DNA of 64,000 bases from Tubulanus polymorphus (taxonomy: Eukaryota > Nemertea > Palaeonemertea > Tubulaniformes > Tubulanidae), in contig NC_134035.1 in the NCBI RefSeq assembly GCF_964204645.1, forward strand, positions 430,001 to 494,000, read 5' to 3'. This document shows positions 34,844-60,598 of the stretch, piece after piece. The notes under the pieces are model-generated. The model saw only the letters and a program-made list of their open reading frames with translations, was not told where the DNA came from and made no database searches. A program made the translations under genes and the position numbers. Position 1 is the stretch's first letter, and each line of letters begins with the position of its first letter.

Positions 34844-35311
34844 CTACTCCCTGTACCCACGCCTAAACAAGACCGATTTTAAATCATGTAAAAGAGCCTT
34901 TGATCTATCCGAAGATAGAAGCTCCTCCCACGGTCCCACGGAACCGCGAGCCACCACCCGCACTTCGGCGCGGCATCGGTCGCTGGACAGAACTCTGTCC
35001 AGCGCCGAAACCGGGGCAGCGGCCAACGGCTCCACGGGGGCAGGAGGAACCCCTCTTACCTCCTCAACCTCCACGACCATCTCCTCTTCTACCAGTTCCG
35101 GCTCCGGCTCCGGCTCCGGGACCGGTTCAAACACCGGTTCCGGTTCCGGCTCCGGCTCCGGCACCGGCACCGCCTCCACCACCTCCGGAACTACCACGAC
35201 GCCGATCTCCTCCCCTCCGCCACCGCGTCGCTCCCCCTCGGGAGGCGCCACACCACCGCGACGAACCGCCGGACGGCGTCGTCTTCGATGCCGAGCGGTG
35301 CGCGTGCCCGT
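34844..35311 (-). CDS. Terminal coding exon, 155 codons plus stop
   Basis: A 468-nt exon, acceptor TTTTTTTGCAG, phase 0, ending GYRE and TAG at 34844. It begins TGTRTARHRRRRR, then glycine/glutamate-rich sequence and a long Pro-Glu repeat (PEPEPEPE, from tandem GGAGCC units at 35096-35170). It finishes in a non-repetitive tail with two LSSDR motifs (VLSSDRCRAE and LLSSDRSKALLHDLK). GC-rich, unlike flanking DNA. No clear polyadenylation signal is seen before the 160-bp repeats that start 185 bp downstream. Confidence 0.72.
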   Translation of the reverse strand, partial: TGTRTARHRRRRRPAVRRGGVAPPEGERRGGGGEEIGVVVVPEVVEAVPVPEPEPEPEPVFEPVPEPEPEPELVEEEMVVEVEEVRGVPPAPVEPLAAAPVSALDRVLSSDRCRAEVRVVARGSVGPWEELLSSDRSKALLHDLKSVLFRRGYRE

Positions 35312-36838
35312 CTGCAAAAAAAAGAAAACATTCATTTACTAAATGATCGGTTGAAAAGTGATTTTTTACAGAAAATTTTCGGATCAGTAACCGAGCTGAA
35401 ATAATGGAACAATTGATTACATATAAACAAAGAGATAAATCGTCGCGATCTGGGAAACAATATTCTAAAGGGTTAGAAAATAAAGCAAAAAAAAAAATGA
35501 CGATGGCTCGCTGAAAATGAAAGTATTATTTAAGAAAAGATATTATAAGTGATTCATAAAAACTGTTCGTGTGAGAGAAATTCATTCGAAATCAAAACTG
35601 AGAGAAATATAAAAAAAACAGTTAATGTTGAGATGATGCTTACCTCCCGTAACTCCCCCTCCCACAGCCGCCCGTCCACGCGACGGGACCACCTCTGTGC
35701 AAGAGGGTGCGGCTGCCGGAGGGTCCGCTGCCTAGGGCGCCTATCCGGGGAGGCAGCAGCTGGAACGGGGTCTGCCAGCTGGTCATCCAAGACAGGACCA
35801 AGGTTCAAGTGAAAGAGGTCTATGGCCTCTTTCACGTCCTCCGGACCATCCTCCACCGTCTCAATTAATATTGGTTCCACTGTAAAATATAAAATAGAAA
35901 GAAATACATTAACAATCAGGAGAAACAATTAATATATCAAGGGCGGATCCAGTCCCCCGCCTTTAATATCTTGAGGTGCCCTCGAGATATTTTAGGAATT
36001 TCTTTTTCCATTTTATAAAGAAATATCAAGTATTCCCTCATGATGGCTATCGAATAGCCTCGGGCAACAAAATTTCAAAATTTTCTGGGGAGAAACACTT
36101 AAGACCCCTTTCATCCCTTCACGAGTGCTCATGTGCCCTTCAGTAAACCTTCCAAAAATCCTGGCTCAGCCCTTGTAGATTTACAGTGAACCCAGTGTAG
36201 CTAGTAATCTCATTAATACAAAATGGTTGACTTTCCACTTGAAGCGTGATTGGTTGCCAATAATTTGTGACATCATCATGCAGCAGAATGGGGGATGCGG
36301 AAAGAATACAATATCAGTCTCGATGAGTGACATTGATGGGCTGGTTGAGAGTTTAGGGTTGTCGGGACAGGGTTACTACAGTACAGCACAGAAGTAACTA
36401 AACATTGTATCATTGTATTGTACAGTCACATGAACAAACAAATAAATAGGTGTCATACCATCAGCGAACCATCACTTAACCATCAGGTGAACCCCTGCCA
36501 TAACCGCAAACCATGATTCATGATGATTTGAAAATAATTCTAAATGGTAGGCATGGAAACTTGTTAAAATTGATCTAGTTCATAAAATGCAGTCTATTTT
36601 CTCTGATTCAAATCAGTTCAAGAAGACTTTTTTGGCAATGCTTCAATTAACAGCGTAAAATGGATGCAAAAACGATGGTTTATTCAGACCGCGCGGTTTC
36701 ACTGGTCGTATTTAAACCAAATTTGATGCGGTATGTGTTTAAAACAATGAGCGACATATGGTATATGGAGTATATTACTTCATGCCTTGCCAAACACTAA
36801 TTACTTACTCACCAAATCACTCAATTAACCTGTTCTTA

Positions 36839-36905
<67 letters not shown>

Positions 36906-39900
36906 TTTTAGTCAATATCTCACACCTGACGATGATCTCTAGGGTGAGATCGAAACATCGTGTTCTTATGTTTTAGATTGTTTCCATAAATAAATTCTCG
37001 ATTTTAGAATTCTTTTAATTTGTAAATAAAGTTGGTTTTTATCTTATTAACCCTTTCAGTGCTGACTGATCAATACCCGTATACTGCTGGAGATAATTTG
37101 AAAAATTCCACCCAAGTGTGTTGAATAACGGGAATAGCACTACAGTGCGTCTACACCACGGCGCGGTGTATCGTTAGTTACTGATATTTCACGATGTGTC
37201 TGAAAATGGTTGACGCCGCACGAAAATAAATAGGCTTTTGTTATACAGAATTCTGTTGTAAACAGAAAGGGAACAATGATCTCGTTTTTCGATTTCAATT
37301 ATTTCTAGGATGTACCGTCAATAAGACCCGGGGCTTGATGAGGCAGTGGCTGCGTTACTGTGGCAAGCGAGGATCAGCTAGTGGTTACTCCTCAATTACC
37401 GTGCTTCAATTTCGTCGTCACTTCCCGATTGAACTGTAGCCGACTCATCGCTTTATCAATACGCGAAAGTTCACGATTGGTAGAACACTTTATCTGTGTT
37501 GACGCGATGAGGAGAGAATCCCACAATGATAATAAAAAGTCCGAAAATGAAACTTCGAGATAGTAGTTTATTCAACGTTTCGACTATATCCTAATAGTCA
37601 TCTTCAGGAATAATCAGGAATTATTCCTGAAGATGACTATCAGGATATAGTCGAAACGTTGAAATAAACTACTATCTCGAAGTTTCATTTTCGGACTTTT
37701 TATTATCATTGTGGGATTCTCTCCTCAACGCGAAAGTTGCTCGAACAAAAATTCGTTTGATTATATTTGAATTTTGTAAGCGAAAATCGAGTTCGAAAAT
37801 AAACTAATTTCATCGCGTATCAACGAGTGTACCAGTACCTTATTCAATGTACGTTGAGGATACTTAACACGAGCGGGGGGGGGGGGGGGGGATGAAAAAT
37901 GATGTGATCAGTGGAAAGAGAGAGGAGAGAGTATAAATGCAAAAGGTTGTACTTACATCGCGTCAAAAAATTAAGTAGATACCGCGGATCCGCGGCGATA
38001 TTCCGCCTTATCTCTTCGATGACTGTAAAATAAATAAATGAGAAAAATTATTAGTATTTCATTAAATCATGGACGATCAATAGGAGTTTTACGACGTGGA
38101 CAATACAGTCAAAGTCCGTTATACTGCCGCCATACTCCATCAGGAGTGACATGATTTTGGGCATTCTAATGTGCTGGATCCAGTTCCACAAATGAGTTAA
38201 CTCTGATCTCAGAATCTAGTTCTACATTTGGGAGAGTTAATTCTGAACTCAGGATCCAGTTCCACAGATGAGTTAGATTTAACTCTGAACACAGAATCCA
38301 GTGCTACAGTTACGAGTTAAAGTTAACTCTGAACTCAGGATCCAGTTCTACAGTTACGAGTTAAAGTTAACTCTGAACTCGGGATCCAGGACCCAGTTCC
38401 ACAGTTGTGAGTTACAGTTAACTAAATTTATCATCAGTTATCAACAGTAAGGCGCTCAGTAACATCTTTCATATTTCTGTTCAAATCAGAGACAAATTCA
38501 GTATTTCTTGTCATAAAATAGTAACAAATACCGAAAATCAGTAACAGTTTGGGCAGCTCTGCTAAAAATGTCTGGCTACAAACGGACATATCTAAATAGG
38601 ATCATGAATATGTGTAGACTTACCATTTTCCGTCGCATCGACGGGGGCGGCGGGGGCGGCAGCTGCATTTTCTGCCTATAATATAATAACAATCATGATG
38701 TTAAGGTTTAAGAAAACAACAAAAAAATTTGTCAAAATTCATGCAGTTTTTACTAGCGTTTCGATAACACGAATCGTAATTAGAGAGATAATGGGGCCAA
38801 TTCCCTATATGAAATCAAAAGCTGAAATAGAGCCTGCAAACAAGAGCATTTCAAGAGCTCAACTAATGCAGCGCAAAGTTTCCAAACAAACCAAGAAATC
38901 ACAATTTCAAAGTTTTTCTTGATTTCTCTTTATAGTACATTCGCCGTTTATGTATAGCAGTTCCGGTCCATTGGATAATCCTTTCATCATCGCTTTCATG
39001 AAATTTGAACAGTAGGGAACTGGCACGCCAGCTATCCCTTCAGATGGCACCGCTTAGGTATGTGAGACAATCTAATGGGACAGAAAGTGAATTTCAGAGA
39101 CGTCGTCTGCGCGACAAGAAGTCGTCAAATTAGAGCATCGATATTTTTTCGCGCATCTCTTATTGTATTAATAGTGAGCACTGGATCATATCATTACGGT
39201 TAAAAATACCTGACAATTTGATATCTCTAATTTGAGTAGTTTTCACCTGAATATATGACAGCGCAAGGGCTCTAATATCAAAAATGGTAGTTGAATAAGA
39301 AATAACCACAACTAGAAATCATTGTGATCTTGAAAGTATTTTGATATTTCAAAGCTCTTAAAATGGAGGCACTACTCTCAAAGTCGTTATCAGGTCTGGA
39401 ATACCACTAACTCAGTAAACAATTCAAACTTACTCTACGGCGTCGGAGCCGCGGGGAGCGCCGCAATTGCGGTATCTCGTCTCTCTGGAAAAAACAAAAC
39501 GATCAACATTGATTAAATCATCGAAACATTAAATGATTTCTTACTGTTTGGAGAGTTCGGTATCAGAATAAGCTCGGTAGGACCAGAGAGATTCAGGGAT
39601 TCTATATGTGAATAGCTCGGTAGGACCAGAGAGATTCAGGGATTCTATATGTGAATAGCTCGGTAGGACCAGAGAGATTCAGGGATTCTATATGTGAATA
39701 GCTCGGTAGGACCTGCGAGGTTCAGGGATTCTACATGTGAATAGCTCGGTAGGACCAGCGAGGTTCAGGGATTCTATATGCGAATAGCTCGGTAGGACCA
39801 GAGAGATTCAGGGATTCTATATGTGAATAGCTCGGTAGGACCAGAGATTCAGGGATTCTACATGTGAATAGCTCGGTAGGACCAGAGATTCAGGGATTCT

Positions 39901-42900
39901 ATATGTGAATAGCTCGGTAGGACCAGAGATTCAGGGATTCTGTATGTCTTCCTGTTCATTGACGTGTCAGTAATGATCAACACATTCAGTGTATTCGATG
40001 CATTATAATTATTTTCACTTATAGTTCAAACTTACATCAGCTTGCGGCGGCGGCGGCGTCGCAGGTGTTTCAGTCTAAAAAGTAAAAAAACGATATTTCC
40101 ATTGGTTATAAAAACATGAAAATGATTCATTTCAACTTAATATAATAAAACTTGGTTCCACAGTTCTGGACCCAGTCCCACAGTTACAGAACCTGGCTCC
40201 GCAGTTCTGGACCCAGTTCCACAGTTTGAAGTTATGATCTAGTAAAGAGTTACCGATGCTGGATCCTAGTTTTCCAGCCAATGATATTCAGTTAGTTCCG
40301 TGCGATAGTCATCAAGCCGATTGTCATAAATTTCTAGATCTCTCCCTGTCCCGCCGCCCCAGAATTAGGTATTTTTACTTTTTTTTGGTTTCGATTTTTT
40401 GGTGCCACGAGATCCAAAGCAGAAGAATTCTACACTATTTTAATTCTTTTTCCGATGCAGATTTTGAAAACAATAAAATATCCTCATAATCATTGGTGAA
40501 CCACAATGATGATAATCTACAGGACTTAAAACAGGTCAATTTGTCAGTTTTTACCATAGTTTATCATTGTTACAATGGTGGTTGTCACCTATGTTGAGGA
40601 TTTACCGCTAGGGGCAACATTGAAACCCGGTCTATGAAATCGGGCCACGGTTGAGGATTTACCCCTAGGAGAAAATGATGTGGTCTATAAAACCCTGCCC
40701 AGATTATCAATAAACTTATTTGAAATTAGCTTCACTTAAAATGATTTGACTCAAATCAAACTTACTTTAACCGGTCCGACGCGTGCCCGTTTAGGGCTAA
40801 CGGGGTCCTATAAAATAAAAACAAGTTGAAATCAACATCCAGAATTTTCAAACATATTTCTGAAGGAAATCTCAATTTCAGATTATCTTAATAATCTTTG
40901 ATGAGCCACGAAAATGATAATCTACACAACTAAAAAATGTAAATGAATAACCATGAACTGCGGGTGCAGAAACGACAACACCACTTGCAAAAAGGGCTTC
41001 AACAAACTCTCCACAATCACAAGAGGCACGTACTACCATCGCGAAAATCTTGTGCCTTTTTTTCCATGCCCAAAATAGATGTTCAAGCCACTTGGAAAGT
41101 GGTTTTTTTCGCATCGACAAACTCTCGTCGCAATCACAAATCATACTTGTCGTAAGCTTAAACTTTCACAAGATCCCGTCGGCAGACGGACAGACGGAGA
41201 GACAGGCGGACAGACGGAGAGACAGGCGGACAGACGGAGAGACAGGCGGACAGACGGAGAGACAGGCACACAGACGGAGAGACAGGCGCACAGACGGAGA
41301 GACAGGCGGACAGGCGGAGAGACAGGCGCACAGACGGAGAGACAGGCACACAGACGAACGGACTGTAAAATGATTTGATGAAATTCAAACTCACCGATGC
41401 CGGTACCTCGAGCTTCCTCTTCTATAAAATAAAAAATCAACTTTAGTTTAACAACGTCAACAAAAATTCAGACATATTTCATCTGCAGTCGTTTGTGTTC
41501 AACTGTAAATTCAATAGAAATGTTCACAATATTTACCGGCACATTCACGCACGTGTGGAATTCATTTCTCTACATAAAAAGAAAAACAAGAGCTCAATTT
41601 AGCATTTATGAAAATCAGAATAAATTATCTCAAATCTCGCATTTTTTTAATAGCTTGGTTGACAGGGTAGACTATTGAAATATCATTTCGGAAAATTAAA
41701 AAAAAAAGAACTCGCTCAGCGCGATAAACACAGTTTTTGAAGGAAGAGGGAACTATCGATAGGGCAATATACATATGTCCAAAACAATGATCCTTGGAAA
41801 GTTCGAATTCTGCACACAAATGTGATCAAAAAAAGAATAAACGTGCGTTTTTCAATTTTTTCATCATTCAAGCCGGGATTCTCATTCGGCGAAGGTGAAA
41901 AACTTTTTTGCTCGTTTTCCACTGAATTTGTTCCACGGATGGGAGTAAAAAAAAAATTCTACTTTTGTTTGACTTTTCTTCAAATTTCGGGAGGCGGTTC
42001 CCGTAAACTAAGCTATTTAAGAAAAAGCCTCATCTGGTGAACCATCACAAATAGTTATTATTACGTTATAGGTTGTTACTAATGATCGGATTTATGAGAA
42101 CCACAACGGTATAGTGTACATTATGGAATAAAGTTCAAGTTTTTGTCAGTAGATGGCAGGCAGGTGGTATTTATAAAGTGACTGGGTGTCAACATGTGTA
42201 ACTGAAATTGTCTATTGTAAACTTACGTCAATTTGCACAATACGCGCGATTTCCGATTCCTAGAAATGTAAAGAAAAAAAATTCTGAAATCAAGTTTTGA
42301 ATAACTATACCACGGATGAAAGATTCCATGATCTAAATTCTTAGTTGACCCTCGATTTAGAGACTATTTTGAGGATAATTGAACCGATGGATGCTGCGTG
42401 ACATGATTTCAATATTCTACTAACTCGGTCTGAAGAATATTTACATCGATACAAAACTGTGACCGAGCCGCAACTTTTAAACATTCTTAGTTTCACTTAA
42501 AAACATTGCTTCACGCTATTATCAATACCAATTTTACGAATAATATGAACTCGGTAAGATAAATATTCACATCGATACAAACTGTGACCGAGTGCGACTA
42601 CTTTCAAACACTCTTTAGATATAACTGGCTTCAGCTGTGATTAATTTAGGACCGAAGATACTACTCTATATAGCTTAATCAGTAGCGGATCCAAACTAGA
42701 TTCCATTGTATTCCCGAATATAGTCAGAATAACATTTTTTTTTTTTAAGTAACTCGATCCAACAGAATGTCCCAGATACAAGGAAATTAGAACATATTTC
42801 AAAATTTTTATTGGTTAGGACCCCTAAACTGCGGCAGCTGCAGCGGTCAGGCAAAAAATATCTTTAAGGAATATAGCCAAATTCACCAGTCCCCCACGGA

Positions 42901-45900
42901 ACTGCCCCTAAGTAATGACTTTAGAATTGAACCCATGATACCGTATAGCGGCTGCAAACAGATCGGTCACAATTACCAGTGTTTATGTTTTCCAACAACA
43001 AATAAGCTAGCAAAAACTAGGTGCCTTTAGCCTACGAGCAAAATTGGTCGTAGCTTTAGCCAAGTTTGACCTTGGTGGAGATATGCTATGGGATCTCATA
43101 GAACATGGATATTTCAGCAGGAAAATCAATATCAGATTATAATAATCTGGTGAACTACGAAAATAATTATCTTTTACAACTTACGATAATGGTAGGAGCC
43201 TCGGGCTCCGGCGGCGGCGGCTCTGGGAAATCATCATTCTAGTAATCAAAATAACATGAAATATCATGAAAAATTCTAGCTAACCCTAAAAGCGAGTATA
43301 TATGGAGCCACCCACTAATGAAAGGGATGGCTCCAAATTCACTGAGAACGAGTAGGCGATCAAAAGGATATTTACCCAAAGGTCGTCGAATAAATTGATG
43401 TCCTATAAAAAAGAATACAAAAAATTTATTACGATAAAATGTACGTATGTTTTTGGTAAATGACACTTACTGATCACAAGTGACATATGGTCACGATAGT
43501 ATCACAATTGCTTGCCAGTGAGGCTAGGCGTTCACCAGAGCCAAGTTTCATAGATGTTGGGAAAAAATAATACCAGCTGGGATCATTTCGAAATTTTTCA
43601 GTTATTACCAAGGTTTTCATCATGAAGTTGTCACCTATGTTGAAGATTTACCTATAGGCAACCAACAGGGCTGCCAACCTCTGAAAAGTGCTATCACTAA
43701 CAAATTGTAATATGAAAATAAATGTTCAAATCAATCAGTAATCAACAGTAAGACCCTCAGTTAGATCTTTCATACTTCTCATATGCATCGAACAAAACAA
43801 ATCAGTATTTCTTGTCATAAAAGAGTAACAAATACCGAAAATCAGGAACGGTTGGCAACTCTGGGTAACATTGATATCCGGTTTACAAAATCGGGCTCAG
43901 GTTGAAGAAATACCTCCAGGGTATTATTGATATACAGTCTATGAAACAGGGCTAAGGTTATCAATATTTAACATCGATATCGAAAATGATTTAATGAAAT
44001 TGAAACTTACCTCGTCACGCGGAATCTTCGGCGGGCTTACGGGTTGCTGTAAAATATTTTAAAAAAAGTTGAAATCAACATTCAGAATTTTGATACACAT
44101 TGATAATAATCTACACGACTTAAAACAGGAAATAATGGTCAAGTCTTCATGAATAACCATAAGCTGTGGGTTCAGAGACGTGAACACGACCGACCGACCG
44201 ACCGACCGACCGACCGACCGACCGACCGACCGACCGACCGACCGACCGACCGACCGACCGACCGACCGACCGACCGACCGACCGACCGACCGACCGACCG
44301 ACCGACCAATTCAATGAGATTGCCAGGTTTTCTAGGACATTAGCACCCTTGAATTGCTGAACAATGCCTATACCACTGGCGATTGTGAGATCCTATCTAT
44401 GGACGAAAAGACAGATTGAAAGTAATAACGGGAGAACGATTCGATAGAATTCAAACTGACCTCGTCGACGGATCGGCGTCGTCGCTTTCTGGTGACCTAT
44501 AAAATAAACGAGCAACATTTAGATTTAATCATTTTTCATTTTCAAGTTCATGATCACGTGTAGTTCGAACATGGAAAGCATTTCATGAGAGAAATTGAGT
44601 GGAGCCGATTTAAGACTGCGAGGAAAGATATCAGTAATGTCAGTGATGAGCGAAAACTAAAAACATGGCCAAAACTTACTTCTTTTGTTGTTGTCGTTGT
44701 TGTTATTTGTTTGCACTGATGCCATGAAAGAAAAAAAGAGAATTAATTTTAGTTTTGTTATTTTATGTTCAGTAGCACACGTAGGTATCAATATACGTAA
44801 TAAATGAGTTCTAAGCGACGGATGCCTCGTTATAGATATTGTTTTGATTCTGTATCGTTATTTAATAAAACGAACAGGAGAATTTTTATGACTTTGTTCG
44901 GTATGAAATACATTGGCTGTCAGATAGAAATGAACACGACAGAAAATCCATGATACAGAAAAATGCTGACTTACTTCCTTCGGTGCTGCTGCTGTTGGTT
45001 TCTGTTGCAATAAAAGAAAGAAAATTCAGTAAGTTTTTTTTTTTTATATTTCATATACAGCAGCAAACGTTAATAAACACAGTAGACATAAAAACTGGAC
45101 AGGTTTATATAGATGTCTGTATCTGAAAAATGATTTTGATGTCATTAGCATAAATATCTTACATTAAGTTAAGTGCAATTCCTGAGTGCTAATGGATTAA
45201 AGTTGATGTTAAGACAGGATCATCTACGAGGGAATACACGGGAAACGAATGACGCTCAATTATAAAATTGAAACTTACTCGTGCAGGAATGGCCGCTACC
45301 GCTGCTGTTGCCGTTGGTGTTGGTTTCTGTTGCAATAAAAGAAAGAAAATTCAGTAAGTTTTTTTTTTTATATTTCATATTCAGCAGCAAACGTTAAACA
45401 CAGAAGACACAAAAACTGGGCAGGTTTAATATCTGTGTCTGGAAATCGATGAAAATCGCAAAAAATAATTGCCCATAGGCCAAGAGGTTTACCACAGCCT
45501 TATGAAATGCTTATATCAGGTAACGAAATAGGGATGTAAAGTGTAAGGTGCGAGAAGTTTCGGTCTCGGTTAGAGAAATGAACGTTATCGCGGACCCAAG
45601 ACAGAGCCGCTATACCGCGCCGTTCATCAGTCAGAATAGGACCGATTCCATCGCATCTCAGCTGCAGCCTCGGTACGGGAATTCAGAGCGTCGTTACGAA
45701 ATGCGAGTTAAACACACCTACTTCCCACTTAACCCATTAGCACTCAAGCCGCTCGAATCCGCCCCGGTACTTTTTTTGTATCCTGCACAAAAACGGTTAT
45801 AGTGGGATTCGAACCCGATAGCTTATAACAATCTACACACCTAAGTCCTCGAAATACCGAACAGAAAATCGACATCCTCCTATTTCAATTTCTCAAGTAT

Positions 45901-51900: not shown

Positions 51901-54900
51901 AAATACACCTCATATATAAACCAGAGCCAAAAAAACAAACGAAGCGTCAGTCGATTTCGATCGTCGCGTCATCTTGGTTTAATCGTGTACTGCGCGCGGG
52001 GTTGTTGCCACTACGTGGCAGCACAATACGGCTTTTTCGAACCCTCTACGGAGCCGTCACGTTTTGATGTTTAGGGTCGAATCCCGAATTGATTTTATTT
52101 TTTTCGCGATGTTTTCTTTTGTGGTTATTTGACTTCTCCCGAAAATCCGGAAATGAAATTGGATTTTTTTTAAATCCGGAATTCCGGAGAAATCCGGAGA
52201 AGTGGCAACACTGTATATTACAAAATGGATAAGCGAACATTCACAATTGTAATTGTTATTTTGAAATGCTTCAATATTGAAATCTTCACCTGTCAAGGGA
52301 TTCGAACCCACTACGCTAAAGCTGTTCCCCGAACCCCCTGACCTCACGAGTCGTTGGAGTCGTTACTAGCCGACCAGAATCCGGTCGTACCAATCACAGC
52401 GCTTGTAACAAACCGTCAGTAGACTTATGTTGGTTTTCCCGTTAAATAGACCAATCAGCGAACGTTTTACCGAACAAGGAAGTATTTCGCAAATCGATAT
52501 ATGACGTCACGCGCAACAGCGCCAGTAATGAAATCACGCTTCATGAGGCCAGGGGGCTGGTGGAAGCGAGTTCGGGAGTGATACCGGACCCCTGGCAAGC
52601 GTTATATTACAAAATGGATAAGCGAACATTCACAATTGTAATTGTTATTTTGAAATGCTCCAATATTGATGACGTAGCGCACATTGACTCACACAAAACC
52701 ATAGGCGTCCCCGAGGGGGGTGCAGGGGTAGCGGACCCTTTTCAAGATAGCTAACTTCTCAAGTTAACATGTAATCAATGTTCAAGATTTTTCTTGCCAA
52801 TTTGACTTAAGTCCTTTAACTCTAAGTGATTCATTTAGAGCCTGGAAAACGTCTCTAAAGCCTCAAATTTAAAAAAAAGTTTTTTGGGGGAGGCCCCCCA
52901 AACACCAGACATTGTGCTTGGATGCTGGATTGATGCTTATTCGAACCCCGTATGAAAATTCCTGGGGACGCCTATGAGAACCTGTTTTAAATAACGCACA
53001 GGTATGAATGTATATGAACATCGTTGTAATTCCGGTTTTTACGGCATCAAAAAAGTTGCGATATTTGCTTCGCTATTAACACTCCCTCCCGTTAAATAAT
53101 ACAGTCGAAGTACCAAAAAATTGCATCAAAAGATTGAATCGTGAGAGCATCTCAAAAACGACATTTCAATAAATTGTCGTTAAGCCCTTGGGTTGTTTAT
53201 CCTATACCTGAAATTTAAGGAGTTAGCAAATAAACTGGTCGCTGAGCTATAATTAATTGGAGAGGCGCAGTGGCCAAGTGGACTAAGCCGCCGGTCACTG
53301 GTCTCGTCAATCCAGGGTTTATAGGTTCAAACCCTTGTGACGACAGAGTTTCTTAGTCGAATGTTTTTCTCTGGTCTCTTAAACAACGAATCCACTTATA
53401 ATGCCATGTGTGGCGCTTAGCGTTTTGAGGCTCTTAAAAAGAGCTATAATTCGTGCAAATTAGATCATTTTTCAAAAAATTGTTACCAATCTTTTCTAAG
53501 GGTCAGTCATACCCTAGAAACCTTTCAATTAACATTAAGCTCATCTCTTACAGTTTTCACTCTATGGAGCTCGAAAGTTTCTATCGATTTTCCTACTTTT
53601 ATGTTACCAATGATGGGCACTCTGAGTGTTTTTTTTTATCAAATCACCCGTGAGTGCTGAAAGAGTTATGCCCTTGGATGATATATACTGGGAGGTGGGT
53701 TGATCCGACGTGGCTCCTTAACTCATTTCCACCCAAACACGTACTCGTATGTTCGTTATCTCCCATCACATTCCTGCCAAAACCGTACTGGCAAAATGGT
53801 TGGCTTGTTTCTTAACTCAAAACCGTACCGATACGGTTGGCTTGTTTCTTAACTCAAAACCCTACCGATACGGTTTGCTTGATTCTTAACTCAAAACCGT
53901 ACCGATACGGTTGGCTTGATTCTTAACTCAAAACCGTACCGATACGGTTGGCTTGGTTCTTAACTCTAACGATAGATGGCGAATTCATCGCACAACACCA
54001 GTTAGTTTAATGCCTTTTAATACTAAACAAACTCATCAGTTGTTCTATACAGTGTGCGAGTGACATCATCTATTGAAATGGGGGCTGAACACGCATGAAC
54101 GAGCATATATTCTGCAAAATACTCCCTCTGCACTGGTTATCGCTACAGATTTTATCACTCTTAGAAGAAATGCCGCTTATTTTACATGAAAATGCAAGAC
54201 CAGATCAAAGATATAAAACAAATTTGATGAGAAGATATCTCTTCTTGTTTTTGTTTTATGAATCTCTGAAAAACACGGAAATCCTGGCAAAATGCAGCAT
54301 TGCCTGAAAAATAGGCGTGGCAGGCAAAGAGTTACGAATGTTCTTCATTTATATTCCCGCTTTTTTTCTCATATACCCTAATTATTCACTCGCCTTAAGC
54401 CCGCCGCACCGGCATAACATTTTTTTCGCCAAAACAGAAAACACACTTTTCAGAACACGTTTTGCCCACAAACAATAAAATGTTCAACGGACACGACATT
54501 TTGCTGTTCGGCGTTTTGTGTTTTGCCTTCCCCGCACACGGCATAACAAAAAAGAGGCTTTAACCTCATGTACTAACACAATACAAATCATTTTCATCTC
54601 AAGTCTCAACATATTACAATTGATAACCAGCCAACAGAATGGATACATCTAAACTTACTTCGATGTCTGGGGACGCCAACGTGGACCTCGTTCCAGTGTG
54701 ATGCTGTAAAAGAATAAAATTCATTAATACAAAGCCTAGGAATTGGTAAATCGACCATGGAAAACATCATCTTGTTTTGCAGAAAATCTACCAGGCGAAA
54801 GAAAAAAATGAGTCGGAATCTATTCAATCGTTGCGCTTATGAAAATCAGCACCAGTTTATGGGCATAAAAATGTGCGCCAAGAATTGAATTTGATGACCA

Positions 54901-57900
54901 ATACAAATAAACCAAAAATAGACAGGTTTGATATCTGTAACCGAACTGGATTTAGAGCCGCCTTTTTTCAGGTCAAAAACGATAAGTTACGAAGGGAATC
55001 GAACTCCGATTTAATTCTGTAACTTTGATGATAATTCTGACGAAAAACTCATAAGAATCGGTTGTTTCAAGGTAACAGAAGAATTAATACTTACTGCCTT
55101 TGCTGCTGTTTGTTTACGCTGATGACATGAAAGAAAAAAAGAGAATTCATTTTAGTTTTGTTATTTCACGTTCACACGTTAAATACAGTAAATATAAATA
55201 CATCAATAAGAGATACATAAAATATATGCACATATATCCGTGAGCAAATGCTTCCAGATTTTACTGTGTGTGCTAATGTTATATAAAAGAAACTTGATAT
55301 ATAAAATAATTCTAAGTGACGGGAATTTATTTCATTGAAAGCAGGATTATTTTCATGACTTTGTTCCTGGTATGAAATATACGATGAAAATCACAAACAA
55401 ATCATCGGCTGTCAGAAAGAAATAAACACCACAGAAATTCCATGATACAGAAAACTTCTCACTTACTTCTGGTGCTGTTGTTCTTGTCGTCGTCGAATTC
55501 TGTCGCAATAAAAAAAAAGAAGAGAATTCATGAATTTCTTGCATTATTTCATATTCAGTAGCAAACATTAAACACAGGAGATCATATTATAATTAAAACA
55601 AAAGACAAGTTTTATATCTGTATTCGGGAAAAACCTCGATATTTCAGTATTCGTTTGTTTTAGGGTTTTATTTAAACAATATAAAGTCCATTAAACAGAA
55701 AAATTCAAACTTACTGTATTCGTCGCTGTTTGTCTGTTCTGTTGCAATAAAAGAAAAGAGAATTCATTAATTTCTTGCATTAAAACTCTGATCTCTGTAA
55801 CTTTGATATTTCTGTATTCGTTTGTTTTACAGTTTGATTCAAACGATATAGAGTCCATGAAACAGAAAAATTCAAACTTCTGTTGTCATTGCTGCTGCTG
55901 CTGCTGCTGCTGCTGCCGCTGCAGCAGCAAACTGTCGCGATGAAAGAAAAGTAATTAATTGCGTTGTTATTTCATATTGAGTAGCACACATTTAACAGAG
56001 ATCATGATTAAAACGAATACCAGACAGGTTTAATATCTGGAAAAAGATTTCATCAGAGTAAACTTGTTACAATGAGAGAAAACCAAAAACACCACGCGAT
56101 AAATCAGTTTGATAATTCCTTTTATCGGGATATTTGCACTTTAAAAATGACAATTGTAATTATCATCATTACTATTATCGTTGTTACTACGAGTATGATG
56201 ATAATTATGAAAGACGAAATCAGTTACAACTTGCTTAAAGAGTTATGAAGTTTCAATGACTCTCAGCGAAAATGGTAGATATCATATTCCACCGAGGAGA
56301 TTAATAGAAAACTTACAAAATGAATTTCCGCTTCTACTGTTATCTAGAAAAGAGAATTAACATTCATATCTATAAAAATCATTCATTAAATGATCAATGA
56401 ATCTAAGCACCAGTTTTATGGAGACCAATGTTTACTTTAATAAATCTGGGTTAACTTGATTAAAAGTGAATTCAGTTAACTGAGCACGGGTTAAACATAA
56501 TACCAGTCTAACCGGCTTCAGAGGACCAGGTTAAACAAAACAGGTTTACATAAAATGATATCATAAAATCTAAACTTACTGGCGGCGGAATTTCCTCCAG
56601 GACTTCTGGCTGTTAGAAAAGAACAATAACATTCACATTCAGGTCAAAAACGATAAGTTATGAAGGGAATCAAACTCCGATTAAATTCTGTAATTTTGAT
56701 GATAATTCTGTTGAAAAACTCATAAGAATCGGTTGTTTCAAGGTAACAGAAGAATTAATACTTACTGCCTTTGCTGCTGTTTGTTTACGCTGATGACATG
56801 AAAGAAAAAAAGAGAATTCATTTTAGTTTTGTTATTTCACGTTCACACGTTAAATACAGTAAATATAAATACATCAATAAGAGATACATAAAATATATGC
56901 ACATATATCCGTGAGCAAATGCTTCCAGATTTTACTGTGTGCGCTAATGTTATATAAAAAAAACTTGATTATAAAATAATTCTAAGTGACGGGAATTTAT
57001 TTCATTGAAAGCAGGATTATTTTCATGACTTTGTTCCCGGTATGAAATATACAATGAAAATCACAAACAAATCATCGTCTGTCAGAAAGAAATAAACACG
57101 ACTAGAAATTCCATGATACAGAAAACTTCTCACTTACTTCTGGTGCTGTCGTTTTTGTCGTCGTCGTCGTCGTCGCTGAATTCTGTCGCAATAAAAAAAG
57201 AAGAGAATTCATGAATTTCTTGCATTATTTCATATTCAGTAGCAAACATTAAACACAGGAGATCATATTATAATTAAAACAAAAGACAAGTTTTATATCT
57301 GTATTCGGGAAAAACCTCGATATTTCAGTATTCGTTTGTTTTAGGGTTTTATTTAAACAATATAAAGTCCATTAAACAGAAAAATTCAAACTTACTGTAT
57401 TCGTCGCTGTTTGTCTGTTCTGTTGCAATAAAAGAAAAGAGAATTCATTAATTTCTTGCATTAAAACTCTGATCTCTGTAACTTTGATATTTCTGTATTC
57501 GTTTGTTTTACAGTTTGATTCAAACGATATAGAGTCCATGAAACAGAAAAATTCAAACTTCTGTTGTCGCTGCTGCTGCTGTTGCAGCAGCAAACTGTCG
57601 CGATGAAAGAATAGTAATTAATTGCGTTGTTATTTCATATTGAGTAGCACACATTTAACAGAGATCATTATTAAAACGAATACCAGACAGGTTTAATATC
57701 TGGAAAAAGATTTCATCAGAGTAAACTTGTTACAATGAGAGAAAACCAAAAACACCACGTGATAAATCAGTTTGATAATTCCTTTCATCGGGATATTTGC
57801 ACTTAAAAAATGACAATTGTAATTATTATCATTACTATTATCGTTATTACTACGAGTTTGATGATAATTATGAATTATATGCGCAAATATAAGCGTATGT

Positions 57901-60598
57901 GTAAGTGAGCGCGCACACAAACTGAAGACGAAATCAGTTACAACTTGCTTAAAGAGTTATGAAGTTTCAATGACTCTCAGCGAAAATGGTAGATATTATA
58001 TTCCACCGAGGAGATTAATAGAAAACTTACAAAATGAATTTCCGCTTCTACTGTTATCTAGAAAAGAGAATTAACATTCATATCTATAAAAATCATTCAT
58101 TAAATGATCAATGAATCTAAGCGCCAGTTTTATGGAGACCAATGTTTACTTTAATAAATCTGGGTTAACTTGATTAAAAGTGAATTCAGTTAACTGAGCA
58201 CGGGTTAAACATAATACCAGTCTAACCGGCTTCAGAGGACCAGGTTAAACAAAACAGGTTTACATAAAATGATATCATAAAATCTAAACTTACTGGCGGC
58301 GGAATTTCCTCCAGGACTTCTGGCTGTTAGAAAAGAACAATAACATTCACATTCAGGTCAAAAACGATAAGTTATGAAGGGAATCGAACTCCGATTTAAT
58401 TCTGTAACTTTGATGATAATTCTGACGAAAAACTCATAAGAATCGGTTGTTTCAAGGTAACAGAAGAATTAATACTTACTGCCTTTGCTGCTGTTTGTTT
58501 ACGCTGATGACATGAAAGAAAAAAAGAGAATTCATTTTAGTTTTGTTATTTCACGTTCACACGTTAAATACAGTAAATATAAATACATCAATAAAAGAGA
58601 TACATAAAATATATGCACATATATCCGTGAGCAAATGCTTCCAGATTTTACTGTTTGCGCTAATGTTATATAAAAAAAACTTGATATATAAAATAATTCT
58701 AAGTGATGGGAATTTATTTCATTGAAAGCAGGATTATTTTCATGACTTTGTTCCCGGTATGAAATATACGATGAAAATCACAAACAAATCATCGTCTGTC
58801 AGAAAGAAATAAACACCACAGAAATTCCATGATACAGAAAACTTCTCACTTACTTCTGGTGCTGTTGTTCTTGTCGTCGTCGAATTCTGTCGCAATAAAA
58901 AAAAAAAAGAGAATTCATGAATTTCTTGCATTTTTTCATATTCAGTAGCAAACATTAAACACAGGAGATCATATTATAATTAAAACAAAAGACAAGTTTT
59001 ATATCTGTATTCGGAAAAACCCTGATATTTCTGTATTCGTTTGTTTTAGGGTTTTATTTAAACAATATAAAGTCCATTAAACAGAAAAATTCAAACTTAC
59101 TGTATTCGTTGCTGTTTGTCTGTTCTGTTGCAATAAAAGAAAAGAGAATTCATTAATTTCTTGCATTAAAACTCTGATATCTGTAACTTTGATATTTCTG
59201 TATTCGTTTGTTTTACAGTTTGATTCAAACGATATAGAGTCCATGAAACAGAAAAATTCAAACTTCTGTTGTCGTTGCTTGCTGCTGCTGCAGCAGCAGC
59301 AGCAGCAGCAGCAGCAAACTGTCGCGATGAAAGAATAGTAATTAGTTGCATTGTTATTTCATATTGAGTAGCACACATTTAACAGAGATCATGATTAAAA
59401 CGAATACCAGACAGGTTTAATATCTGGAAAAAGATTTCATCAGAGTAAACTTGTTACAATGAGAGAAAACCAAAAACACCACGCGATAAATCAGTTTGAT
59501 AATTCCTTTTATCGGGATATTTGCACTTTAAAAATGACAATTGTAATTATCATCATTACTATTATCGTTATTACGAGTTTGATGATAATTATGAACTACA
59601 TGCGCAAATATAAGCGTATGTGTAAGTGAGCGCACGCACAAACTGAAGACGAAATCAGTTACAACTTGCTTAAAGAGTTATGAAGTTTCAATGACTCTCA
59701 GCGAAAATGGTAGATATCATATTCCACCGAGGAGATTAATAGAAAACTTACAAAATGAATTTCCGCTTCTACTGTTATCTAGAAAAGAGAATTAACATTC
59801 ATATCTATAAAAATTATTCATTAAATGATCAATGAATCTAAGCGCCAGTTTTATGGAGACCAATGTTTACTTTAATAAATCTGGGTTAACTTGATTAAAA
59901 GTGAATTCAGTTAACTGAGCACGGGTTAAACATAATACCAGTCTAACCGGCTTCAGAGGACCAGGTTAAACAAAACAGGTTTATATAAAATGATATCATG
60001 AAATCTAAACTTACTGGCGGCGGAATTTCCTCCAGGACTTCTGGCTGTTAGAAAAGAACAATAACATTCACATTCATTAGAATTATTTGAAAAATAAGCA
60101 TCTGGGGGCGGTTGCACGTCAATCGAGACTTAAGTCCGAAAGTGGTCTTAAATCTTAAGACTGGTCTTAAGTTGTTAGATTGGCTATAGAACCAAGTTGG
60201 TCTTAGACTGATCTTAAGTCTAAGCCCTGACTATGGAACGGGCCCCAGAAAATGTTTCAGTTTTGAATATTGATTGTAACATCAAATGATAACCGGTCCC
60301 GGGTTCAATTCCACATTTAATTCAATATTATATATAATATCTGTATCCTGGATGGTTAGTGAGGTGTAGTGGATGGTATCTTTGATGGGTTGGTATGAAC
60401 GCCAACACCAGGGGGAGTGGGGGCGGGGGATTTAAATCTAGCTCCGATATATCAATGAAATAGTGCGCACTATCTCAAAAATATCGACGACGTAGTGCAC
60501 ATCTACTCAGGTAAGTATACTAGGTATCAATGTAGATACAGACATATTATTGGAACAAAAAAATGAATACTTACTATCTGCTTTCGTTTTGGAGCCAT
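34844..60598 (-). CDS. Micro-exon modular gene, about 40 coding exons, product of unknown family (~720 aa)
   Basis: I built this from exons flanked by consensus GTAAGT-type donors and TAG/CAG acceptors that read through in one frame from ATG (60598) to TAG (34844). Coding exons, start-end: 60575-60598; three five-exon cassettes between 60044 and 55095; then 54659, 51183, 50710, 49932, 49805, 49525, 48946, 48619, 45279, 44975, 44680, 44461, 44011, 43376, 43185, 42227, 41395, 40766, 40036, 39434, 38624, 37957, 35644 and 34844 (ends listed separately). All junctions are phase 0 except the two around 37957-38022, which are phase 1 and agree with each other. The N-terminus is MAPKRKQI. The product is low-complexity (Thr, Ala, Pro, Lys/Arg) with several basic clusters, a KH-like middle and a 155-aa C-terminal exon. 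I recognise no family; nuclear or nucleic-acid binding is inference only. No transcript evidence is available, so exon inclusion is unproven. Confidence 0.75.
35644..35879 (-). CDS. Penultimate exon, 78 codons
   Basis: A 236-nt exon, phase 1 to phase 0, acceptor TTTTACAG, donor GTAAGC. It starts with the acidic helix EPILIETVEDGPEDVKEAID, then a VLDDQLADPVPAAA linker, then an Arg-rich part (RRPRQRTLRQ) and ends GRLWEGELRE. A plus-strand copy at 28007-28236 shares most residues but carries a stop codon in place of a Trp. Confidence 0.75.
35950..36830. other. Intron without further exons found
   Basis: Between exons 37957 and 35644. Holds a half copy of the foldback family (36550-36745) and otherwise unassigned AT-rich DNA. 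Confidence 0.4.
36841..36901 (+). repeat. TA dinucleotide microsatellite
   Basis: About 30 uninterrupted TA units. Confidence 0.95.
36922..37015 (+). mobile_element. Fragment of another Penelope-like terminal repeat
   Basis: After a TA microsatellite comes CCTGACGATGATCTC, a short loop, GAGATCGAAAC and a T-rich tail. This is the same arrangement as the CCTGAAGATGACTAT...ATAGTCGAAAC segment of the 46-48 kb and 37.5 kb elements, with a different but still complementary stem. Outer limits are uncertain. Confidence 0.5.
37051..37230 (+). mobile_element. piggyBac-like MITE fragment
   Basis: TTAA followed by CCCTTTCAGTGCTGACTGAT and about 150 bp matching the right end of the element at 61948-62840 in reverse complement. 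The other end is not found here. Confidence 0.5.
37472..37727. mobile_element. Solo hairpin terminus of the same Penelope-like family
   Basis: Two arms of about 106 bp (37509-37614 and 37620-37726) are inverted copies separated by 5 bp, and match the outer ends of the 46108-48432 element. It has the same asymmetric ~37-bp tail (37472-37508) on one side. An 11-bp direct repeat ACGCGAAAGTT flanks it (37461-37471 and 37728-37738). It has no coding sequence and looks like an insertion in its own right. Confidence 0.85.
37957..38022 (-). CDS. Exon VIEEIRRNIAADPRYLLNFLTR
   Basis: A 66-nt exon, phase 1 to phase 1, acceptor TTTTACAG, donor GTAAGTAC. It encodes an apparently helical peptide (IEEIRRN ... 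RYLLNFL), joins in frame to both neighbours, and is conserved at the protein level in the plus-strand copy (30014-30079). Confidence 0.72.
38165..38415 (+). repeat. Degenerate ~40-bp minisatellite
   Basis: About five copies with GAGTTAACTCTGAACTCAG and GATCCAGTTCCACAG, in the intron between exons 38624 and 37957. Confidence 0.8.
38624..38675 (-). CDS. Exon AENAAAAPAAPVDATEN
   Basis: A 52-nt exon starting in phase 0 and ending in phase 1, acceptor TATTATAG, donor ATG|GTAAGT. Its spare G joins TC of the next exon to make Val. It is the first exon of the non-symmetric 3' group. Two relatives sit on the plus strand near 28451 and 28991. Confidence 0.65.
39434..39484 (-). CDS. Exon RDEIPQLRRSPRLRRRR
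   Basis: A 51-nt phase-0 exon, acceptor TTTTCCAG, donor GTAAGTTT. Strongly basic. A close relative on the plus strand (29749-29796) keeps both splice sites and the frame, one codon shorter. That cross-copy conservation supports it as a real exon. Confidence 0.7.
39567..39945 (+). repeat. 43-bp minisatellite, about 9 copies
   Basis: The unit contains GATTCTATATGTGAATAGCT then CGGTAGGACCAGAG. It lies in the intron between exons 40036 and 39434 and has expanded relative to the inverted copy near 29.5 kb. Confidence 0.9.
40036..40074 (-). CDS. Micro-exon TETPATPPPPQAD
   Basis: A 39-nt phase-0 exon, acceptor CTTTTTAG, donor GTAAGTTT. Confidence 0.6.
40766..40807 (-). CDS. Exon DPVSPKRARVGPVK
   Basis: A 42-nt phase-0 exon, acceptor TTTTATAG, donor GTAAGTTT. 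The PKRARV core resembles a monopartite nuclear localisation signal. A frameshifted relative of this exon is fused into 28991-29079 on the opposite strand. Confidence 0.65.
41175..41358 (+). repeat. 20-bp minisatellite GGACAGACGGAGAGACAGGC
   Basis: About nine copies in the intron between exons 41395 and 40766; open frames on both strands are by-products. Confidence 0.95.
41395..41421 (-). CDS. Micro-exon KRKLEVPAS
   Basis: A 27-nt phase-0 exon, acceptor TTTTATAG, donor GTGAGTTT. The downstream intron starts next to a 20-bp minisatellite. Confidence 0.58.
42227..42259 (-). CDS. Micro-exon ESEIARIVQID
   Basis: A 33-nt phase-0 exon, acceptor ATTTCTAG, donor GTAAGTTT. Not low-complexity. Confidence 0.6.
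43185..43238 (-). CDS. Exon NDDFPEPPPPEPEAPTII
   Basis: A 54-nt phase-0 exon, acceptor TTACTAG, donor GTAAGTTG. Acidic and proline-rich, GC-rich against AT-rich introns, as expected for real coding sequence here. Confidence 0.62.
43376..43402 (-). CDS. Micro-exon DINLFDDLW
   Basis: A 27-nt phase-0 exon, acceptor TTTTATAG, donor GTAAAT (less canonical). A short acidic and aromatic peptide of the kind seen in docking motifs; no partner can be inferred. Confidence 0.5.
44011..44046 (-). CDS. Micro-exon QPVSPPKIPRDE
   Basis: A 36-nt phase-0 exon, acceptor TTTTACAG, donor GTAAGTTT. Proline-rich, with an SP dipeptide like that in the exon at 40766. Confidence 0.62.
44186..44308 (+). repeat. CGAC tetranucleotide microsatellite
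   Basis: About 30 uninterrupted copies, in the intron between exons 44461 and 44011. Confidence 0.97.
44461..44496 (-). CDS. Micro-exon VTRKRRRRSVDE
   Basis: A 36-nt phase-0 exon, acceptor TTTTATAG, donor GTCAGTTT (a weaker donor). It encodes a strong basic cluster, RKRRRR, that could act as a nuclear localisation signal. Confidence 0.62.
44680..44715 (-). CDS. Micro-exon CKQITTTTTTKE
   Basis: A 36-nt phase-0 exon, acceptor GGCATCAG, donor GTAAGTTT. Its first codons and acceptor context resemble the RKQTAAKA cassette exon, suggesting common descent. Confidence 0.6.
44975..45001 (-). CDS. Micro-exon KPTAAAPKE
   Basis: A 27-nt phase-0 exon, acceptor TTGCAACAG, donor GTAAGTCA. Related to the AIPAR exons at its start. 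Confidence 0.6.
45279..45326 (-). CDS. Exon KPTPTATAAVAAIPAR
   Basis: A 48-nt phase-0 exon, acceptor TTGCAACAG, donor GTAAGTTT. It is the third member of the AIPAR exon group and lies on the far side of the Penelope-like insertion. Sequence 45274-45585 is nearly identical to 48613-48908, so the duplication is recent. Confidence 0.65.
46522..47286 (-). pseudogene. Penelope-like element ORF fragment: RT C-terminus plus GIY-YIG endonuclease
   Basis: About 254 codons are open. The fragment begins within the reverse transcriptase (FAVYRKPTNAESYLHYF, the conserved VYRKPT...YLH block). Next come a linker and the GIY-YIG nuclease: CGIYKIPC, then KVYIGETGRNLNQRIKEHK with the catalytic Arg, HVFQTSHNFDF, and a catalytic Glu in RHILESALI. 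The catalytic core of the reverse transcriptase is missing, so it cannot mobilise itself. This is the longer of the two arms. Confidence 0.88.
47236..47982 (+). pseudogene. Second, shorter Penelope-like ORF fragment with GIY-YIG endonuclease
   Basis: Homologous sequence starts at about 47288 with DIKLGLAQG. The upstream codons of this frame are spacer read antisense, so the ATG at 47236 is not genuine. From there the protein matches the minus-strand copy through CGIYKIPC, VYIGETGR and RHILESALI to the end, with no visible disabling change. It lacks the whole reverse transcriptase core. Confidence 0.85.
48297..48332 (+). ncRNA. Hammerhead-ribozyme-like motif in Penelope terminus
   Basis: The sequence reads CCTGAAGAT, GACTAT, a 6-7 base loop, ATAGTC, GAAAC. 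This matches CUGANGA and GAAA core blocks around helix II, but with one extra U before helix II. Hammerhead motifs are reported from Penelope-like terminal repeats. The same motif occurs inverted at about 46177-46211 and in both arms at 37.5-37.7 kb. Self-cleavage is not shown by sequence alone. Confidence 0.4.
48619..48654 (-). CDS. Exon TKPTAAAAIPAR
   Basis: A 36-nt phase-0 exon, acceptor TTGCAG, donor GTAAGTTT. Its flanking introns match those of the 48946 and 45279 exons closely. The intron downstream, toward 45326, holds the Penelope-like insertion. Confidence 0.65.
48946..48993 (-). CDS. Exon QKPPTTTTAAAAIPAR
   Basis: A 48-nt phase-0 exon, first of three related exons ending AIPAR (also 48619 and 45279). 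The acceptor is a NAGNAG type (TTGCAGCAG), so the first Gln may be optional. Donor GTAAGTTT. Confidence 0.65.
49525..49575 (-). CDS. Micro-exon with polyalanine tract
   Basis: A 51-nt phase-0 exon: QTK, eight Ala from a GCA run, KTAAAF. Acceptor TTTATAG, donor GTAAGTTT. The GCA run is a microsatellite inside coding sequence and probably varies in length between individuals. Confidence 0.6.
49805..49831 (-). CDS. Micro-exon RERKKKALE
   Basis: A 27-nt phase-0 exon, acceptor TTTCCAG, donor GTAAGTTT. It contains a run of nine A that would be prone to length change. It continues the charged helix of the preceding exon. Confidence 0.6.
49932..49958 (-). CDS. Micro-exon TLKEKRKME
   Basis: A 27-nt phase-0 exon, acceptor TTTAATAG, donor GTAAGTAA. 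Highly charged and probably helical. Confidence 0.6.
50710..50829 (-). CDS. Exon encoding KH-like strand-strand-helix
   Basis: A 120-nt phase-0 exon, 40 codons, acceptor TTTACAG, donor GTAAGAA. It contains QVIVDTPRV, then AIVVVRGPKVAVDNC, then a charged helix ending RDRLVAQE. The 'VVRGPK-AV' pattern resembles the last strand and final helix of KH modules. It is the most sequence-diverse stretch in the gene and the best query for homology search. Confidence 0.72.
51183..51263 (-). CDS. Exon encoding start of a KH-like segment
   Basis: An 81-nt phase-0 exon, 27 codons, beginning EIETVFELKLG and ending LTRKHP; acceptor ATATTTCAG, donor GTAATG. Together with the next exon it reads as alternating hydrophobic strands and amphipathic helices, unlike the low-complexity neighbours. 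I suggest a divergent KH-like fold, but the GxxG loop expected of RNA-binding KH domains is not visible. Confidence 0.65.
51721..52213. mobile_element. Short hAT-like non-autonomous element
   Basis: Terminal inverted repeats CAGAGTTGCCACTT and (complement of right end) CAGTGTTGCCACTT. A TATATT direct repeat flanks it at 51715-51720 and 52214-52219. It interrupts a sequence that exists uninterrupted at about 52605-52680 (TTATATTACAAAATGGATAA). hAT elements usually make 8-bp duplications, so the class is tentative. Confidence 0.65.
52283..52372 (-). repeat. tRNA-derived SINE-like segment
   Basis: Minus strand contains GGGTTCGAATCCC (B-box-like) after GCTTTAGCGTAGT; flanking sequence 52214-52280 recurs at 52608-52680. 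Confidence 0.4.
52700..52976. mobile_element. Small element with 13-bp terminal inverted repeats
   Basis: CATAGGCGTCCCC at 52700-52712 and GGGGACGCCTATG at 52964-52976. Internal sequence is non-coding with a G-rich/C-rich stretch (TTTTTTGGGGGAGGCCCCCC). Target duplication not clear. Confidence 0.5.
53262..53349 (+). repeat. tRNA-Ser/Leu-like SINE head
   Basis: GGCGCAGTGGCCAAGTGG (A-box-like, class II style) and GGTTCAAACCCTTG (B-box-like), with a long variable-arm spacing. Stems are imperfect and the 3' end lacks an acceptor stem, so I call it SINE-derived rather than a working tRNA. Confidence 0.5.
53765..53965 (+). repeat. ~37-bp minisatellite with internal palindrome
   Basis: About five copies of TTGGCTTGATTCTTAACTCA plus AAACCGTACCGATACGG; AACCGTA and TACGGTT pair to form a stem-loop in each unit. 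Confidence 0.85.
54659..54703 (-). CDS. Exon HHTGTRSTLASPDIE
   Basis: A 45-nt phase-0 exon with acceptor TTTTACAG and donor GTAAGTTT. It lies below the cassette array and is not a copy of any cassette exon. A 3.4-kb intron rich in short transposons follows (54658 to 51264). Confidence 0.7.
55095..56609 (-). CDS. Exon cassette C (five micro-exons)
   Basis: Third copy: 56580-56609, 56317-56343, 55715-55738, 55467-55499 and 55095-55118. Peptides are the same as cassette A. Intron similarity continues below the last exon to about 54970, which marks the end of the tandem array. Confidence 0.72.
56766..58323 (-). CDS. Exon cassette B (five micro-exons)
   Basis: Second copy of the cassette: 58294-58323, 58031-58057, 57396-57419, 57138-57182 and 56766-56789. 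The peptides equal those of cassette A, except that the fourth exon is 15 codons (NSATTTTTTKTTAPE) rather than 11, through expansion of an ACG/GAC run. All splice sites are kept and intron sequence is nearly identical to cassette A, pointing to recent duplication. Confidence 0.72.
58480..60044 (-). CDS. Exon cassette A (five micro-exons)
   Basis: Exons in order: 60015-60044 (PEVLEEIPPP), 59752-59778 (ITVEAEIHF), 59101-59124 (NRQTATNT), 58854-58886 (NSTTTRTTAPE) and 58480-58503 (RKQTAAKA). Each has a GTAAGT-type donor and a CAG/TAG acceptor, and each is a multiple of three in phase 0. A sixth, alanine-rich exon (59266-59318) has a good acceptor, but its donor reads GAAGTT instead of GTAAGTT, so I left it out of the model. 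Confidence 0.72.
60104..60246. mobile_element. Short foldback element (GGGGGCGG...CGGGCCCC)
   Basis: Ends are inverted (GGGGGCGGTTGCACG... and ...CATAG-like GGAACGGGCCCC), with internal ACTTAAGT/CTTAAGAC repeats. Non-coding. Lies in the intron upstream of exon 60015. Confidence 0.5.

Follow-up and report, generated by a model that had tools for sequence, protein, structure and literature searches.

The question raised by this locus of the nemertean Tubulanus polymorphus is whether a long succession of very short open segments on one strand constitutes a genuine protein-coding gene, and, if so, what kind of gene it is and how it has grown. The window analyzed here, a stretch of 64,000 nucleotides (C11:430001-494000), comes from an assembly of 77 contigs totalling 268 Mb, in which 12 contigs are 11.5-32.1 Mb long and C13 is 0.24 Mb. 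Based on the comparisons described below, we propose that the segments probably form a genuine protein-coding 41-exon micro-exon gene, one of nine full copies in an amplified family, whose product is most likely a non-secreted nuclear protein; the family is apparently undescribed.

A dynamic-programming search for exon chains on the minus strand of the region 34700-60700 yielded 41 coding exons, all of them predicted, which join from 60598 to 34844 into a single frame of 731 codons (Table 1). The ends of the chain were set by trimming exon 1 to the ATG at 60598 and extending the last exon to the stop ending at 34844, and the joined coding sequence of 2196 nt comprises 731 amino acids plus one stop, with zero internal stops. 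The first-pass annotation had described a gene of about 40 exons and about 720 residues in one open frame, made of mostly symmetric phase-0 micro-exons whose few non-symmetric junctions agree with one another, and this description holds: 39 of the 41 exon lengths are multiples of three, 36 exons are at most 54 nt long (56% of the coding sequence) and 26 at most 36 nt, phase 0 occurs at 39 of 41 exon ends, and the sole detour from the frame runs 0-1-1-0 through exons 38 to 40. Most splice sites in the chain have strong and uniform scores. An extra Ala-rich candidate exon in each module, with a weak gtttga donor, was excluded; it would disrupt the frame in module 1.

Table 1. Predicted exons of the minus-strand gene, its five-exon module and the excluded candidate exons, in window coordinates.
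Feature	Position	Strand	Length (nt)	Peptide or content	Basis
Exon 1, coding part	60575..60598	-	24	MAPKRKQI; ATG 4 nt past strong acceptor	
Exons 2-16	55095..60044	-	~1.7 kb per copy	three tandem copies of five-exon module, 95% identical	
Module peptides, in order	exons 2-16	-		PEVLEEIPPP / ITVEAEIHF / NRQTATNT / NSTTTRTTAPE / RKQTAAKA	
Exon 2	60015..60044	-	30	PEVLEEIPPP	exon chain
Exon 3	59752..59778	-	27	ITVEAEIHF	exon chain
Exon 4	59101..59124	-	24	NRQTATNT	exon chain
Exon 5	58854..58886	-	33	NSTTTRTTAPE	exon chain
Exon 6	58480..58503	-	24	RKQTAAKA	exon chain
Exon 7	58294..58323	-	30	PEVLEEIPPP	exon chain
Exon 8	58031..58057	-	27	ITVEAEIHF	exon chain
Exon 9	57396..57419	-	24	NRQTATNT	exon chain
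Exon 10	57138..57182	-	45	NSATTTTTTKTTAPE	exon chain
Exon 11	56766..56789	-	24	RKQTAAKA	exon chain
Exon 12	56580..56609	-	30	PEVLEEIPPP	exon chain
Exon 13	56317..56343	-	27	ITVEAEIHF	exon chain
Exon 14	55715..55738	-	24	NRQTATNT	exon chain
Exon 15	55467..55499	-	33	NSTTTRTTAPE	exon chain
Exon 16	55095..55118	-	24	RKQTAAKA	exon chain
Exon 17	54659..54703	-	45	HHTGTRSTLASPDIE	exon chain
Exon 18	51183..51263	-	81	EIETVFELKLGTSLRASFQKTLTRKHP	exon chain, eight-locus comparison
Exon 19	50710..50829	-	120	QVIVDTPRVHAIVVVRGPKVAVDNCYEYAHELRDRLVAQE; best conserved among middle exons	exon chain, copy comparison
Exon 20	49932..49958	-	27	TLKEKRKME	exon chain, eight-locus comparison
Exon 21	49805..49831	-	27	RERKKKALE	exon chain, eight-locus comparison
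Exon 22	49525..49575	-	51	Ala-rich; 48-66 nt across eight loci, always multiple of 3	
Exon 23	48946..48993	-	48	QKPPTTTTAAAAIPAR; 45-54 nt across eight loci	
Exon 24	48619..48654	-	36	TKPTAAAAIPAR; 36-48 nt across eight loci	
Exon 25	45279..45326	-	48	KPTPTATAAVAAIPAR	exon chain
Exon 26	44975..45001	-	27	KPTAAAPKE	exon chain
Exon 27	44680..44715	-	36	CKQITTTTTTKE	exon chain
Exon 28	44461..44496	-	36	VTRKRRRRSVDE; basic cluster	exon chain
Exon 29	44011..44046	-	36	QPVSPPKIPRDE	exon chain
Exon 30	43376..43402	-	27	DINLFDDLW; acidic-aromatic	exon chain
Exon 31	43185..43238	-	54	NDDFPEPPPPEPEAPTII	exon chain
Exon 32	42227..42259	-	33	ESEIARIVQID	exon chain
Exon 33	41537..41569	-	33	RNEFHTCVNVP	exon chain
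Exon 34	41395..41421	-	27	KRKLEVPAS; basic	exon chain
Exon 35	40766..40807	-	42	DPVSPKRARVGPVK; SPKR, basic	exon chain
Exon 36	40036..40074	-	39	TETPATPPPPQAD	exon chain
Exon 37	39434..39484	-	51	RDEIPQLRRSPRLRRRR; basic	exon chain
Exon 38	38624..38675	-	52	AENAAAAPAAPVDATEN; phase 0 to 1	exon chain
Exon 39	37957..38022	-	66	VIEEIRRNIAADPRYLLNFLTR; phase 1 to 1	exon chain, genome search
Exon 40	35644..35879	-	236	phase 1 to 0	exon chain, genome search
Exon 41	34844..35311	-	468 incl. stop	Arg-rich start, Pro-Glu stretch, C-terminal segment common to C6/C3 relatives	exon chain
Rejected candidate exon	59318-59264		55	Ala-rich	weak gtttga donor
Rejected candidate exon	57594-57559		36	Ala-rich	weak gtttga donor
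Rejected candidate exon	55931-55878		54	Ala-rich	weak gtttga donor

In the window gene (60598) and in relatives at C6:1290429, C3:563150 and C12:3307464, an ATG lies 0-4 nt past a strong splice acceptor, a position that would suit either a first exon without coding sequence or trans-splicing of a spliced leader. Intron 24 contains two inverted open frames of 260 aa (46522-47982), which we take to resemble the GIY-YIG end of a Penelope-like element. Elsewhere in the window, 48 copies of a 28-bp satellite, which match at 96%, fill 21524-22879 among many further tandem repeats, and searches of the window with Rfam (at the gathering threshold) and for tRNAs returned no match. A search of the genome for COX1 was likewise negative.

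The chain, with a score of 415, is far from what the same finder produces by chance: over 100 dinucleotide shuffles the scores averaged 6.3 and peaked at 23.2. Only 1 exon was found on the plus strand of the same region and 4 on the minus strand of 9000-34700. As the splice model had been trained on 26 of the gene's own exons, it was cross-validated: training on 13 exons of one half and testing on the other recovered 23 and 15 exons, with a few known exons missed per half, while the plus-strand controls gave 1 and 1. Because the finder imposes a consistent frame and hence favours multiples of three, the open frame alone is no independent proof, and comparisons from copy to copy give the gene stronger support.

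A genome search located nine copies with near-identical 3′ exons on C11, C9 and C8, which places the gene in a large amplified family, an addition to the first-pass annotation that only the genome-wide comparison could supply. The 66-nt exon occurs at 100% identity in nine places, which also contain the 120-nt exon (11 matches at ≥95% in all, two of them stray) and the 5′ flank, once partially. In 8 of the 9 copies, a relative of the 66-nt exon lies 7.4-8.1 kb beyond the gene's own. Two of the C11 copies form a block at 0.40/0.48 Mb with a spacing of ~80 kb, and the block recurs, inverted, at 1.99/2.07 Mb, so that the paired copies look like a segmental duplication. With the 79-aa exon, the search gave 79 genome matches at E≤10, 25 of them to near-identical copies or fragments of these on C11, C9 and C8, and 54 distant: 26 on C6 (0.65-1.75 Mb), 10 on C3 (0.42-1.33 Mb), 8 on C8 (14.6-16.3 Mb) and 10 on C12 (3.29-3.34 Mb). 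Thirty-six of the distant matches reach E≤0.001, and those on C12 lie above that cut-off. All family clusters are within ~3.4 Mb of a contig end.

The family also includes disordered relatives. The plus strand of the window carries a scrambled, inverted partial copy of the 3′ exons at 27998..30202, with pieces of exons 40, 38, 35, 37 and 39 out of order, and C12:3290001-3350000 holds a tandem array of gene-like units of ~5.6 kb with a MPKAKKKT first exon, the units being apparently decayed.

The architecture, its conservation and the copy number are shown at the level of sequence. The C8 copy, the only one besides the window to be read end to end, agrees with it exon by exon and in exon order, but has two modules where the window has three. 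Between these two copies, all 10 of 10 non-zero differences in exon length are multiples of three, whereas only 8 of 30 intron differences are. At splice sites, 9 of 875 positions (1.0%) have changed, and in introns 534 of 9105 (5.9%), or 253 of 7521 (3.4%) after removal of 6 of 34 badly aligned flanks, so that the splice sites change less than even the trimmed introns (p=3e-5). Non-repeat exons (16/525, 3.0%) are indistinguishable from the trimmed introns (p=0.80), and low-complexity exons (55/781, 7.0%) are more divergent than introns. The dN/dS ratio is ~0.28 over 667 codons (bootstrap 95% 0.18-0.43), 0.20 (0.12-0.34) over 541 codons with the variable repeats removed, and 0.26 (NG86) or 0.37 (YN00) on 433 codons, values that may appear lower than the true one because synonymous divergence (0.09-0.10) is about three times higher than intron divergence (0.034).

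Seven exons were compared across eight loci, the window being one. Four of the seven, of 81, 120, 27 and 27 nt, are constant in length and the next three vary within the ranges given in Table 1, with every one of the 56 lengths divisible by three. Of the 8 loci read, 7 have a last exon whose frame is intact; the eighth has TGTAG instead of TGCAG at the acceptor, so the acceptor pattern is unmatched there. Genomic variation between copies is modest: the gene varies, short of demonstrated hypervariability and of the very many protein variants that the first-pass annotation thought the locus could make.

Within the gene, units of exon plus intron match one another at 67-95%: 95% between modules, 81-92% among exons 23-25, 71% between exons 4-5 and 21-22, 70-74% between exons 5/10/15 and exon 26, and 67% between exons 29 and 35. 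This duplication of exon units, together with the in-frame length variation between copies, bears out the earlier suggestion of a modular gene. Eight of the 9 copies contain the five-exon module three times and the C8 copy contains it twice, making 26 near-full matches; among the 40 of 47 candidates that were scored, no near-full match fell outside the nine copies, and one gene copy has an additional piece of 191 nt.

The distant relatives on C6 and C3 have 3′ exons and final phases in common with the window gene, and their C-terminal part is identical to that of the window protein at 61 of 184 residues (E 1e-10). By our reading, they would have about eight coding exons, in the order MPKAMKK..., Gln-rich, two small exons, a Ser/Gln/Ala-coding repeat, the 66-nt exon, a 230-nt exon and the last exon. 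This model is partly a manual one, because a second 85-nt candidate exon (C6 1295489-1295573) was removed by hand, the two together disrupting the frame; the automatic chains for C6 and C3 include additional weak exons. The C3 and C6 copies show several differences in a short stretch at the start of the 230-nt exon, next to an intron that looks near-identical; diversifying selection or conversion is a possible cause. The simplest account of the growth of the family would be a short gene whose middle was expanded by unit duplication in the C11/C9/C8 branch.

As for the encoded protein, the highest 19-residue hydropathy is 1.13, with no signal-like or membrane stretch, and at the N-terminus (MAPKRKQIPEV) the highest 11-residue mean is 0.79 within about the first 40 residues, a signal peptide being judged here from the hydropathy scan alone. 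Basic clusters resembling nuclear-import signals occur in exons 1, 20, 21, 28, 34, 35, 37 and 41. The protein is not histone- or protamine-like, because its net charge is only +4, and it has 4 cysteines in 731 residues. The acidic-aromatic stretch of exons 30-31 resembles activation domains. We read the product as a mostly disordered protein of the nucleus that contains a variable linker, its location being deduced from motifs alone.

Consistent with the first-pass annotation, which recognised no family, a Pfam search of the joined protein returned 0 families at E≤10, and solved structures searched with exons 17-22 gave a best E of 0.14. The last exon of the C6 relative had two sub-threshold Pfam matches only. 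When residues 155-731 were searched against 5.8 billion proteins, 7999 candidates were scored and not one reached E≤0.001, a weak absence since the collection may hold few spliced eukaryotic proteins. Two proteins of that collection matched the last exon, at E 9.8e-5 and 0.036, one of them under the name peptidoglycan-associated lipoprotein; we take both, with the alignments unseen, for matches of Pro-Glu composition and dismiss them. These searches thus led to no recognised relative beyond the genome itself.

The nearest known kinds of gene are the schistosome micro-exon genes (MEGs) and the aphid bicycle genes. In MEGs, longer introns separate numerous very short exons whose lengths are mostly divisible by three, and the genes are duplicated on several chromosomes with repeated units (PMC10526429, PMC4015677); in these respects the window gene is alike, most of its coding exons being very short and multiples of three and its copies, with repeated units, lying on several chromosomes. 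However, MEG proteins carry an N-terminal signal peptide, the longest has 189 residues, and the majority of exons are of 15 bp (PMC10526429, PMC4015677), whereas the window protein has 731 residues (versus 189 in PMC10526429), basic nuclear-import-like clusters and no signal-like stretch by hydropathy scan, and its micro-exons are of 24-54 nt. The bicycle/megacycle genes likewise form a large family, weakly conserved in sequence, in which the many micro-exons share a single phase and one giant member has >100 micro-exons (PMC9168663). The large family and the many uniform-phase micro-exons are shared with the window gene, but bicycle internal exons are almost all in phase 2 and the proteins have signal sequences and CYC motifs (PMC9168663), in contrast to the phase 0 of the window gene and a protein in which the string CYC is absent and the hydropathy scan alone reveals no signal-like stretch. 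On these descriptions, membership in the schistosome MEGs fails on the hydropathy profile and the 731-residue length, and membership in the bicycle genes on phase, the CYC string and, again by hydropathy, the signal.

Fibrillar collagens, elastin and the titin PEVK region are also encoded by short in-frame exons, which such genes can gain or lose. The window gene resembles them in this, but none of the domains of collagen, elastin or titin was found in its protein by Pfam. To our knowledge, uniform-phase micro-exon families are otherwise only secreted host-interaction proteins, namely the MEGs and bicycle genes.

Several other explanations were weighed. That the chain is a repeated non-functional relic or a chance open chain would agree with the broken relatives, both the scrambled partial copies and the C12 array, but is very improbable in view of the shuffle and strand controls, of length differences in multiples of three in exons only, of the constraint on splice sites, and of distant relatives with the same phases. 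Hardly more probable is a cargo gene or transposase of a large mobile element; near-identical copies scattered over three chromosomes would suit such an element, whereas Pfam found no transposase-like family and the paired ~80 kb spacing at two places fits segmental duplication.

Somewhat more room, though still at low probability, is left for a selfish or drive-like ampliconic gene, for example a germline-expressed one, maintained by its copy number and not by host benefit. Amplified clusters on C3, C6, C8, C9, C11 and C12, among whose relatives some are decayed or scrambled, and the two-copy block occurring twice on C11 in opposite orientation, speak for it, while the splice sites and protein under constraint between the window and C8 speak against it. 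We regard as equally doubtful a combinatorial, MEG-like diversity gene, in which skipping of symmetric micro-exons would yield a wide range of isoforms that might serve in immunity or mating: the 39 exons in multiples of three and the array being the part that varies between copies speak for it, but most splice sites are strong and uniform, which fits constitutive splicing equally, the protein has no signal-like stretch, and the module number is near-constant (3,3,3,3,3,3,3,3,2). A further reading, unlikely to a similar degree, would make this a new class of micro-exon gene with an intracellular product, a regulator in the nucleus. Its phase-0 exons would then act as interchangeable cassettes, each copy yielding many isoforms, and the amplified, diverging copies would add further diversity.

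We thus return to the probable reading, a member of an amplified family with clusters toward chromosome ends that has expanded through repeated duplication of whole exon plus intron units between conserved end exons, namely the first exon, which is basic, and the four at the 3′ end, whose phases follow the fixed 0-1-1-0 pattern. In such an arrangement the number of units can rise or fall while the frame stays intact. The product would most likely be a non-secreted, largely low-complexity nuclear protein, wherein the micro-exon array may serve as an adjustable linker, bearing short basic and acidic motifs, that joins the small conserved segments of exons 18-19 and the C-terminus. Nuclear location, linker role and any alternative splicing are what we infer from the predicted protein and exon chain.

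Such micro-exon genes are easily missed by annotation. The intermediates of expansion may be seen within one genome, from the relative of about eight coding exons on C3/C6 to the 41-exon version on C11/C9/C8, and if a family that is non-secreted and probably nuclear has come to resemble the MEGs and bicycle genes in architecture, this would point to a general way of growing proteins.
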